Positions 25,330-47,218 of a stretch of 47,218 bases of DNA are shown piece after piece. The stretch is from NCBI GenBank assembly GCA_902550485.1, contig CACCZQ010000005.1, positions 1-47,218 on the forward strand, read 5' to 3'. The stretch comes from an uncultured Prochlorococcus sp. (lineage in GTDB: Bacteria > Cyanobacteriota > Cyanobacteriia > PCC-6307 > Cyanobiaceae). Positions within the stretch are counted from its first letter, which is position 1. Every line of letters begins with the position of its first letter. The notes under the pieces are model-generated. The model did not search any database. It was not told the origin of the DNA and was given only the letters and a program-made list of their open reading frames with translations. The translations under genes and the position numbers were made by a program.

Positions 25330-26916
25330 ATGAGTCAAACATCTTTAAAAAAAGAACGAGATCCTTCAATATTAATATTAGATTTTGGATCTCAATATTC
25401 TGAACTGATTGCAAGAAGAATTAGAGAAACACATGTTTTTTCTATTGTAGTTAGTAACTGTATTTCAATTGAAGATATTAATGATATTAAGCCCAAGGGT
25501 ATCATTTTGAGTGGAGGACCAAATTCTGTATATGATCAAAATGCTCCTAAATGTGATGAAAAAATTTTCAATCTAGGTATTCCTATTCTTGGCATATGCT
25601 ATGGAATGCAATTAATGGTTAAAGAACTTGGAGGATCTGTTATTTCAGCAACCAAAAAAGCTGAATATGGTAGAGCGCCAATAAATATAGATCAAGAATC
25701 TGACCTCCTTTCTGATGTAGAAAATAAATCTATAATGTGGATGAGTCATGGCGATTCAATTAATTGTTTACCTGATGGATTTAATAAAATTGCTCATACC
25801 GAGAACACACTCCATGCAGCAATTTCAAATGAAAAAAAGAAATTATTTGGCGTTCAATTTCATCCTGAAGTTATTCATTCAGAGTTTGGGATGACAGTAA
25901 TTAAAAATTTTGTTTATAAAATTTCCACTTGTGAGGCTGATTGGACAACTGAAACTTTTTTAGAAGAGACTATTCCTATGATAAGAGAGCAAGTTGGCAA
26001 TAAGAAAGTTTTGCTTGCCTTGTCGGGAGGGGTTGATTCCTCAACTCTCGCTTTTCTTCTCAATAAAGCAATTGGAAATCAGCTTACATGCATGTTTATA
26101 GACCAAGGTTTCATGAGAAAAGGTGAACCAGAATTTTTAATGAATTTTTTTGATAAGAAATTTCACATAAAAGTAGAATACATTAATGCAAGGGATAGGT
26201 TTATTGCCAAATTAAAAGGAATTACTGATCCAGAACAGAAAAGGAAAATTATTGGTGAAGAATTTATTAGAGTATTTGAAGAAGAAAGTAATAGACTGGG
26301 ACCTTTTCAGTATTTAGCTCAAGGTACGCTTTATCCTGATGTTATTGAAAGTGCTGGTACTAATATTGATCCTAAGACAGGTGAAAGAATAGCTGTAAAA
26401 ATAAAAAGTCATCATAACGTAGGTGGTTTACCAAAAGATTTACAATTTAAATTAGTTGAGCCATTAAGAAAACTTTTTAAGGATGAAGTCCGAAAATTGG
26501 GTGCAGCATTAGGTTTGCCTGATGAAATTATAAAAAGGCATCCATTTCCAGGCCCCGGATTAGCGATAAGAATTTTGGGAGAAGTGACTAATGAAAAACT
26601 CAATTGTTTAAGAGATGCAGACTGGATAGTAAGAGAAGAAATCACAAAAACAGGCCTTTACAATGATATTTGGCAAGCATTCGCAGTACTTTTACCAGTT
26701 AAAACTGTAGGCGTTATGGGCGATAAAAGAACTTATGCATGGCCAATAGTTTTACGTTGTGTATCTAGTGAAGATGGTATGACAGCTGACTGGTCAAAAA
26801 TTCCTTTTCAGATATTAGAGAGAATTTCTAATAGAATTGTTAATGAAGTTGTTTCAGTTAATAGAGTTGTTTATGATATAACAAGTAAACCCCCTGGAAC
26901 TATTGAGTGGGAGTGA
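25330..26916 (+). CDS. guaA: GMP synthase (glutamine-hydrolysing)
   Basis: GuaA aminates XMP to GMP. The 528-residue protein has the class I glutamine amidotransferase domain ([17 protein letters not shown], catalytic cysteine in [18 protein letters not shown]). The ATP-pyrophosphatase domain follows, with the PP-loop [12 protein letters not shown] near 231-242. The dimerisation domain ends with [28 protein letters not shown]. Everything is intact. It ends in TGA, whereas most genes in this window end in TAA. The last six codons occur again at 27044-27064, so this 3' end may have been rebuilt by an integrating element. ATG at 25330 is the start. Confidence 0.97.
26896..26916 (+). repeat. guaA 3' end, copy 1 of att-like direct repeat
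   Basis: The final codons of guaA, encoding GTIEWE and a TGA stop. It matches 17 of 21 positions in the copy at 27044-27064. All differences are at codon third positions or in the stop codon. Confidence 0.7.
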
Positions 26917-26955
26917 AGAATAGGTTATAAACCCAGTTATAGACTCAAAAAGTAC

Positions 26956-26977
26956 GTTTCCCTCAGGTTTCCCTCAG
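26956..26977 (+). repeat. 11-bp perfect tandem direct repeat
   Basis: The unit gtttccctcag occurs twice head to tail (26956-26966 and 26967-26977), within the 127-bp segment between the two guaA ends. It is richer in G+C than the surrounding DNA. Short direct repeats beside attachment sites can be integrase arm-type sites, but nothing proves this here. Confidence 0.75.
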
Positions 26978-27043
26978 GAAAATGTGTGTTAATATGGGTT
27001 CAAACATGCTGGTATCACTACGTTTATGACTACCCTTTTTCTC

Positions 27044-27064
27044 GGTACTATAGAATGGGAGTAA
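27044..27064 (+). repeat. Second guaA 3' end (att-like scar)
   Basis: This stretch reads, in frame, GTIEWE followed by TAA, the same six residues that end GuaA, 148 bp after the real stop. Synonymous codons (GGT, ATA, GAA) replace those of guaA (GGA, ATT, GAG). Similarity stops at both edges. The simplest reading is a remnant from site-specific integration at the guaA 3' end, a known target for genomic islands, after which most of the element was lost. Chance similarity is unlikely for six residues including Trp plus a stop directly downstream. Confidence 0.6.
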
Positions 27065-27126: not shown

Positions 27127-27840
27127 ATGAGCGAGATTATTAAATTAAGTCGATCTACTGTAGAGAAATATATTAGTTGTCCACGATGTTGTGTACTTGA
27201 TAAAAAATATCAAATAAAACCACCATCATTACCATTTACTTTAAATATAGCTGTAGATAATTTATGTAAAAATGAATTTGATTACTATAGAAAAATTCAG
27301 GAGCCACATCCATTATTTATTGAAAATGGTATTGATGCTGTTCCTTTCAAACACAAAGAGTTAGAACGTTGGAGAAGTAATTTTATAGGGATAAGATATA
27401 AGTCTATTGAACATAATTATGATTTTGGTGGAGCTGTCGATGATATTTGGCAGAAAAAAAATGGTGAACTTATTATTATTGATGTAAAAGCAACATCTAG
27501 AAATAATTTTGATTGGTCTGAGACTTTTAATAAATTTGAATATCCAAAAGCTTATAAAAGACAATTAGAGATGTATCAGTGGTTATTTAAAAAAAACGGT
27601 TTTCAAGTGTCAAAAGAAGCTTATCTTTTATATTTCAATGGAAAGAAAAATGAAGAGTTTTTTAATAACCAATTAAATTTTGATGTACATCTAATTAAAT
27701 TAGATTGCTCTACATCATGGGTAGAAAATAAGATAATTGATACTGTCAAACTATTACGTTCGGATAATTTCCCTAACCCCTCTTTAAATTGTGAATACTG
27801 TAATTATTTAAGGAAGCGCTGGCAGTTATCGATAACTTAA
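27127..27840 (+). CDS. Cas4/AddB-like PD-(D/E)XK nuclease with putative Fe-S cluster
   Basis: The 237-residue protein has the active-site pattern of RecB-family nucleases: GGAVDDIW (Asp105), LIIIDVKATS (Asp119, Lys121) and RQLEMYQWLF (Gln146, Tyr150). Cysteines bracket the domain: C18, C21 and C22 at the N-terminus (SCPRCC) and C222 and C225 at the C-terminus (CEYC). This matches the iron-sulfur layout of Cas4 and AddB. The family has 5' or 3' DNA exonuclease activity. There is no CRISPR array or other Cas gene in the window, so it is a stand-alone enzyme, perhaps in repair or mobile-element biology. It starts 62 bp after the second guaA end, with its own leader. Function beyond the nuclease fold is unknown. 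Confidence 0.75.
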   Translation: MSEIIKLSRSTVEKYISCPRCCVLDKKYQIKPPSLPFTLNIAVDNLCKNEFDYYRKIQEPHPLFIENGIDAVPFKHKELERWRSNFIGIRYKSIEHNYDFGGAVDDIWQKKNGELIIIDVKATSRNNFDWSETFNKFEYPKAYKRQLEMYQWLFKKNGFQVSKEAYLLYFNGKKNEEFFNNQLNFDVHLIKLDCSTSWVENKIIDTVKLLRSDNFPNPSLNCEYCNYLRKRWQLSIT

Positions 27841-46729: not shown

Positions 46730-46882
46730 TTTGCAAGATTGGATTTCTTAATAAGATAAATTAATTTAAAACTTATCTTCTCAGTATTGATACTTATAAA
46801 ATTAAAAAAATTCTTTTTAATACATGTAATTGCAGCAATATTTACACACTCATAAATTATCTACTACAACTTCTTAGTTATT

Positions 46883-46909
46883 TAAAAAAGTGGAGTCCTT
46901 TCAGACTCC
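46883..46909 (-). terminator. Intrinsic terminator of ssrA
   Basis: On the minus strand GGAGTC-TGAAAG-GACTCC forms a six-pair stem followed by AC and six T residues. It sits just after the coding part of the tmRNA and is the clearest intrinsic terminator in the window. Confidence 0.8.
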
Positions 46910-47150
46910 TTGTATCATTTGGTTGATAAGGCTGATATAACCCCATCTCCTTTAGGATCAAGCAGCAACTGGTGCTGTTTGACGGGAGAAACTAACGATT
47001 TTGTTAGCATTTGTGTTTTTGCTCTAACCGAGCCGGCTTCAGTCACCTTCCTTATGCCCCGTCGAAACCATTACAACCCCAAATAGTGGAGTTGAGCGGA
47101 ATCGAACCGCTGTCCGAAACATCGGTTGAGATCACCTAGTCCAATTGGAC
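46910..47150 (-). ncRNA. ssrA: Two-piece (permuted) transfer-messenger RNA
   Basis: tmRNA rescues stalled ribosomes and tags the truncated peptide for degradation. On the minus strand the order is permuted: the acceptor half (TPsiC arm with GGTTCGATTCC and 3' acceptor strand CAACTCC, ending at 47087) comes first. After a short spacer of about seven bases, the coding half starts with GGGGTTG (47080). GGGGTTG and CAACTCC pair as the seven-bp acceptor stem, and CGGTTAGAG pairs with CTCAACCG as the long P2 helix. The tag frame runs from 47008 to a TGA at 46958 and encodes ANKIVSFSRQTAPVAA, the known cyanobacterial tag. CCA is not encoded. The 5' end is estimated. Confidence 0.93.
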
Positions 47151-47218
47151 ATTTATATTCTGACAGGCAAAATGGTTATTGAATAGTTTTTTTACTAAGT
47201 TTTATCGTATATGAATGT

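Follow-up and report, generated by a model that had tools for sequence, protein, structure and literature searches.

The 3' end of guaA in Prochlorococcus is, judged from its junctions across genomes, an integration hotspot at which integration re-creates the end of the gene and leaves a second copy at the far end. It is highly probable that this hotspot is served by a guaA-specific recombinase, and that a short segment at the site in an uncultured Prochlorococcus sp. is a deletion-derived, probably still mobile miniature element (mini). The segment lies in the 47,218-nucleotide stretch of DNA analysed here (the window), which contains the following features.

25330-26916, plus strand: guaA, encoding glutamine-hydrolysing GMP synthase, the intact host target gene (open reading frame; NCBIfam NF000848, 800 bits, cut-off 400)
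26896-26916, plus strand: left attachment site, the last six guaA codons and stop (GTIEWE*), copy 1, from junction comparison
26905-26912, plus strand: GAGTGGGA, the putative crossover core in copy 1, from junction mapping
26917-27043: the 127-bp segment between both copies
26917-26956, plus strand: left arm (AGAATAGGTTATAAACCCAG...), shared with the left ends of elements of 1.5-4.6 kb in three other genomes (G081, G018, G151)
26957-26978, plus strand: two tandem 11-bp repeats TTTCCCTCAGG, arm-type-like, at the junction of fused ends; the block is common to left and right ends of full elements
26979-27043, plus strand: right arm, matching right ends in G018, G151, G081, G146 and others
27044-27064, plus strand: right attachment site, the second GTIEWE copy (GGTACTATAGAATGGGAGTAA), copy 2, with its core at 27053-27060
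27127-27840, plus strand: next host gene (237-aa protein), the right flank of the site

The product of the last gene weakly resembles a Cas4-like nuclease, with a TIGR00372 score of 35.8 bits that falls short of the cut-off (65).

The duplication of the guaA end is real, and its copies are a pair of attachment (att) sites. The copies are equal at 17 of 21 bases, with the mismatches at three third-codon positions and in the stop, and the ten bases flanking each copy on either side show no match; a recount thus agrees with the initial annotation, which had also described the similarity as ending abruptly. No other 21-mer of the window, on either strand, reaches at least 17 matches to copy 1, a score that was likewise absent from 5000 Markov-simulated 500-bp stretches. 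The same annotation had placed the copies in frame with each other, which does not hold: they align codon by codon, but their spacing of 148 bp is not a multiple of 3, so they lie in different reading frames.

The site is variable across the genus. A protein search of 200 Prochlorococcus genomes matched guaA in 170 and the next gene in 167 (E <= 1e-20), and the site counts rest on the best 150 of these 170 and the best 150 of these 167 matches, window genome included. Genomes with the two genes on different contigs or strands (13), with guaA only (16) or with the next gene only (16) were set aside, and 121 genomes among the matches listed, window included, carry both genes on one contig and strand. 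Among these matches, the gap between the genes is 47-114 bp in 40 of the 121 genomes, 194-297 bp in 12 (213 bp in the window), 308-521 bp in four and 1.0-19.2 kb in 65, where it often holds stacks of small elements bounded by guaA 3'-end copies; the site is occupied in 81 of the 121. The initial annotation had recommended looking for genomes with a single copy, for large inserts between both ends and for integrases adjoining guaA. All three were found: 39 sites with a gap of 47-78 bp have a single copy, 65 of the 121 genomes among the matches listed have 1-19 kb between the ends, and integrases are present behind guaA in relatives.

All but one of the 121 intervals were analysed further (the 19.2-kb interval of G184 was left out), giving 80 occupied intervals and 40 under 150 bp. 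The occupied intervals contain one att copy in 17 cases, two in 45, three in 11, four in three, five in three and six in one; tandem stacks with at least three copies are therefore present at 18 of 80 occupied sites. The guaA copy was the only one detected at 17 of 80, which means that some inserts lack a recognisable right site. Gain or loss can be recent, since an empty site (G084) and one with a 7.8-kb insert (G047) have identical 300-bp flanks on each side. At one locus (L071, in G092) the 114-bp gap exceeds the 47-bp empty sites of the nearest rows by 67 bp and contains both arms but no right site, as in a decayed mini. Separately, guaA and the best next-gene match lie about 22 kb apart on opposite strands of one contig (G042:C1), which points to a rearrangement at the hotspot.

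The point of strand exchange was mapped by comparing 39 empty sites, 80 left junctions and 39 right-most junctions. The dominant base is identical between empty sites and left junctions at all guaA positions through the second base of the last codon, and from position -1 onward the left junctions have element sequence. Among 39 empty sites, 35 end guaA with the codon GAG, whereas 50 of 80 left junctions have GAA there, and a TGA stop occurs at none of the 39 empty sites and at 33 of the 80 left junctions. Clade may account for part of the last-codon difference, given that the four empty sites with GAA are unlike the others; this caveat does not touch the TGA stop. Right-most copies often have other spellings before GAGTGGGA and resemble empty sites after the core. 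Together, the left and right patterns place the strand exchange inside GAGTGGGA, so that copy 1 is mostly host and copy 2 mostly element. Copy 2 is accordingly element-borne upstream of the exchange point and host-derived downstream, and it reads GGTACTATA, a variant seen often at element right ends and seldom in guaA. The earlier suggestion that copy 1 is element-borne therefore fits only its last base and stop; up to the exchange inside GAGTGGGA, it is host guaA.

The window element measures 148 bp core to core and has no open reading frame of at least 30 codons inside. Single elements in G018, G151 and G081, which measure 1.5-4.6 kb between cores, match the window at both ends: their left ends correspond to 26890-26977 and their right ends to 26945 to about 27067. 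The two matches overlap in the block of two 11-bp repeats TTTCCCTCAGG. By these matches, the window segment is a larger element's left end joined to its right end at the repeat block common to both. Since the shared block sits at the join, the window form most likely arose by recombination between left and right repeat blocks, with deletion of the cargo. The repeats look like integrase arm sites, as known from other tyrosine integrases, and the left ends of integrase-bearing elements have the same construction, with repeats. In named genomes, the exact left-arm 20-mer occurs in 13 Prochlorococcus records and is fused to a guaA end in all 13; the 148-bp form is present in AG-918-F13 and AG-422-M20. 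Across 73 segments, an element's own left and right ends share a mean longest common string of 13.2, a value that none of 10000 permutations matched; ends paired otherwise average 8.3. Only five of the 73 segments find their single best match in their own partner, because repeat variants are common to many elements.

A candidate enzyme for these exchanges is a tyrosine recombinase whose gene lies in two of the 68 intervals longer than 300 bp; a role in guaA-site exchange is suggested by the position of the gene behind guaA. Searches with the integrase gave matches in 10 of 200 genus genomes, four of them strong, and in 19 of 201 family genomes, where the four strong matches were in other genera. 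All eight strong integrase genes, both finds included (E of 1.6e-90 or less), lie 193-1015 bp behind guaA; one (G275) has a stop inside the gene. An integrase fragment in G093 is also behind guaA, while the five other weak genus matches and the 15 weak family matches have no guaA within about 1.5 kb on each side. The window element has no integrase, and the window genome, which is 53% complete, has no integrase match. A search for integrase remnants in the 120 intervals found none beyond the two intact genes and one marginal 25-residue hit (E 0.48). A viral or plasmid origin was considered and rejected, as the IMG/VR, phage and plasmid collections contained no relative of the integrase and the left-end pattern was not found in viral contigs. 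No solved structure is related to the integrase by sequence.

Cargo without a recognised integrase is the rule among inserted elements, many of which are stacked between guaA copies. Among 105 cargo open reading frame representatives, no more than one has a Phage_integrase match and two have a serine resolvase match, one of these two having been identified. The largest cluster comprises 52 open reading frames in 33 genomes, and both members scanned are TPR proteins, fused to a methyltransferase and a sulfotransferase domain. Restriction and DNA-methylation genes are present as well: PADLOC matched 172 defence families, the best 25 of which are mostly restriction and methylation. No relaxase was seen in the 25 most frequent of the 103 Pfam families matched by the 105 representatives, nor in 29 open reading frames scanned singly, and no conjugation gene was recognised among the listed matches of the cargo scans.

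Segments between att copies range from 0.14 to 8.3 kb, and 18 of them are shorter than 200 bp with both att sites recognised. Nine of these minis stand alone, six lie next to guaA with more DNA behind, one is internal and two are last. The window kind is present at full length, at 90% or above, in five of 266 genus genomes (window included), with G195 at 68%. A second kind with a different left arm occurs in 25 of the 266, as 24 full-length copies and a partial hit in G456 with a second core 139 bp further; both searches scored at most three candidates per genome. Truncated second-kind copies are found in G186, at the left end, and in G095. The second kind is 138-140 bp long in 21 of 23 measured cases, with G166 (no recognisable right site) and G037 left out. 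No full-sized element with the second-kind left arm was found in the 120 intervals or among the hits of the 266-genome search, which could miss short diverged arms; full elements in G047 and G177 resemble only the first bases of this arm.

The most similar minis are closer to each other than the guaA genes of their hosts, with identities of 96.6% vs 81.6% (G425/G405) and 93.7% vs 82.3% (G148/G032), and the second kind reaches 95-97% between hosts whose guaA genes are 82% identical. This suggests that minis probably spread. For comparison, among 347 pairs of empty spacers with similarly diverged flanks, five are at least 93% identical. Minis of the window kind exceed guaA in identity in eight of 10 pairs and, against third codon positions, in all 10, while the second kind is more alike in 20 of 105 pairs over all positions and in 70 of 105 against third positions; G037, G393, G452 and G034 were left out, the latter three because they do not adjoin guaA. 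When shorter flanks were compared, the second kind was more alike in six and 10 of 78 pairs and the window kind in two and three of three. Gaps are also less frequent in the second kind than in empty spacers, except in the most divergent of four bins, where the two are about equal. On a flank tree, the second kind requires 12 changes for 13 genomes and a window-like kind, which includes several repeat variants, six for six. This tree is weak, with 62 of 116 inner branches open and long branches for G127, G123, G158 and G095, caused by a shifted next-gene start in all four; its window-like set omits G124 and G156, whose minis lie inside arrays.

The proposed mechanism is as follows. A guaA-specific tyrosine recombinase would exchange strands inside GAGTGGGA at the hotspot, and integration of a full element would restore the guaA end and place a second copy at the far junction. 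Recombination between left and right repeat blocks would then delete the cargo and leave a mini with one repeat block. As both attachment sites and both arms are kept, the mini can probably still be moved by an integrase acting in trans, or taken along by a neighbour that inserts next to it and excises jointly with it. Movement of the window mini itself is thus probable, but some points count against it: the window genome, 53% complete, has no integrase match, full elements have several repeat blocks where the mini has one, and a 148-bp circle is very small for an integrase complex. Taken further, picocyanobacteria may have an integron-like system without an integron, in which a rare guaA-specific integrase moves in trans a shared pool of integrase-less cassettes and of 140-148 bp minis; the minis would spread through deep clades much as MITEs do, but by site-specific recombination. 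This extension is put forward tentatively, at somewhat under an even chance. For the window kind, full elements that share the mini's ends are common. Similar minis in distant hosts could therefore also arise if such a full element spread and underwent deletion repeatedly.

The strongest alternative is that the segment is inert, left by one integration and near-total deletion through repeat recombination and then subject to vertical inheritance and decay. It shares its origin with the mobile mini, and the two differ only in the abilities of the remnant. The join at a repeat block common to both ends is what this reading expects, decayed forms do exist (G092 with arms but no right site, G186 with a truncated left end), and most second-kind pairs are no more alike than guaA. 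However, minis are scattered over the flank tree, weak as it is; they keep both att sites, vary little in length and, where the contrast is greatest, resemble each other far more than their hosts do; nor has the second kind been seen as a full element among the 266-genome hits, with three candidates scored per genome, or the 120 intervals. Overall, an inert remnant seems rather unlikely. The initial annotation had proposed just such a scar; its account of the origin stands, since the 127 bp consist of the joined ends of larger elements found at this site, but the scar reading is probably too passive.

A conserved regulatory RNA or terminator with a chance guaA-like string is very improbable. 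Near-constant lengths would suit it, and the antisense fold is slightly above shuffles (z -1.8, 12 of 200 as good), but the sense fold is unremarkable (z -0.4), no Rfam family matches at a meaningful score, there is no terminator and two promoter-like sites compare with 1.5 expected. The segment is also wholly absent from 39 of 120 genomes. The reading was dropped after the Rfam, folding and promoter/terminator scans gave nothing; the initial annotation had named a conserved RNA or gene, or a second copy invariably present with no island and no single-copy state, as what would speak against integration, and the segment shows no Rfam match or unusual fold, while single-copy and island states both exist. 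As a further alternative, replication slippage or accidental gene conversion might have duplicated the guaA 3' end in tandem, and the closeness and similarity of the two copies might point that way. The chance of this is negligible: it is already refuted by the match of the intervening segment to inserted elements of other genomes and by the spelling of copy 2, which many element right ends share and guaA seldom shows.

The preferred reading, a mobile mini at a recombinase-served hotspot, has precedents in several known systems. The guaA 3' end had been cited in the initial annotation as a documented island site, and a study of GIsul2-type islands of Proteobacteria bears this out, describing the same target, an identical core GAGTGGGA and an integrase beside guaA, together with a third internal att site that allows separate movement of a part (PMC9376610). 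The likeness extends to target, core, integrase gene position and restoration of guaA after insertion inside GAGTGGGA. In contrast to GIsul2 as described there, the elements of the cyanobacterium Prochlorococcus are small, usually lack an integrase and often form stacks; the window element encodes no tyrosine integrase, and strong matches, all behind guaA, occur in only four of 200 genus genomes.

In form, the minis resemble the microCIMEs of Streptococcus salivarius, described as gene-free units of 130-220 bp that retain their att sites; they form tandem arrays with larger elements at a housekeeping gene's 3' end and invariably occupy the position most distant from that gene (PMC7563491). The window element is likewise gene-free at 148 bp with att sites kept, and both its ends match larger same-site elements, from which it would derive by deletion. 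Unlike microCIMEs as reported there, six of 18 minis lie closest to guaA and are followed by more DNA, and the gene, host and element backbone are different. The guaA-site minis are thus microCIME-like in form and guaA-island-like in target, and integrase-less elements far outnumber integrase-bearing ones.

Within Prochlorococcus, tycheposons are described in secondary accounts as 4-200 kb elements using seven tRNA genes as sites, and the original tycheposon paper is said there to treat 'cryptic elements' too (PMC10872708, PMC10187409). They share with the guaA-site elements, as far as these accounts go, the host, a tyrosine recombinase and cargo at a fixed site, but here the target is the protein gene guaA and the segments are 0.14-8.3 kb. 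In the window, ARAGORN found only a tmRNA, at the far end, and no tRNA-gene target. A targeted full-text literature search, covering PMC5974335, PMC10187409, PMC3478194 and PMC10872708 but not the original tycheposon paper, found no description of the guaA site in Prochlorococcus.

Integron gene cassettes are short cargo units without their own recombinase, stacked between recombination sites and served by a recombinase encoded elsewhere. The cargo units at guaA are similar in lacking their own recombinase and in being stacked between sites, but their recombination site is a guaA copy with arm repeats on its flanks. Of the two integrases scanned, one gave 19 bits against the integron integrase model TIGR02249 (cut-off 265) and the other no match.

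Prochlorococcus is streamlined yet has a large flexible gene pool. An occupied hotspot with restriction, methyltransferase and TPR-sulfotransferase cargo and a rare integrase offers a testable route by which small gene units could move in and out, and the guaA landing site hints at how streamlined cells gain and lose genes. The minis show how such units shrink to their ends, after which movement may continue.

Several further observations were made. In 64 inserts totalling 290 kb (L088-L151), CTCTATAGAGA or its reverse complement has 54 hits against 0.2 expected from shuffles, a 12-bp palindrome being counted twice; it is absent from the window. In the same inserts, TGTAGAGA has 131 hits vs nine expected, and the two could possibly be a shared regulatory or replication motif of the elements. 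Some inserts, including L142, L141 and related ones, contain an MreB-like cluster (nine open reading frames in nine genomes) and an EPSP-synthase-like cluster (nine in seven genomes), each with one representative scanned. The tmRNA gene near the window end lies at 46867-47176 and encodes the tag ANKIVSFSRQTAPVAA (ARAGORN).
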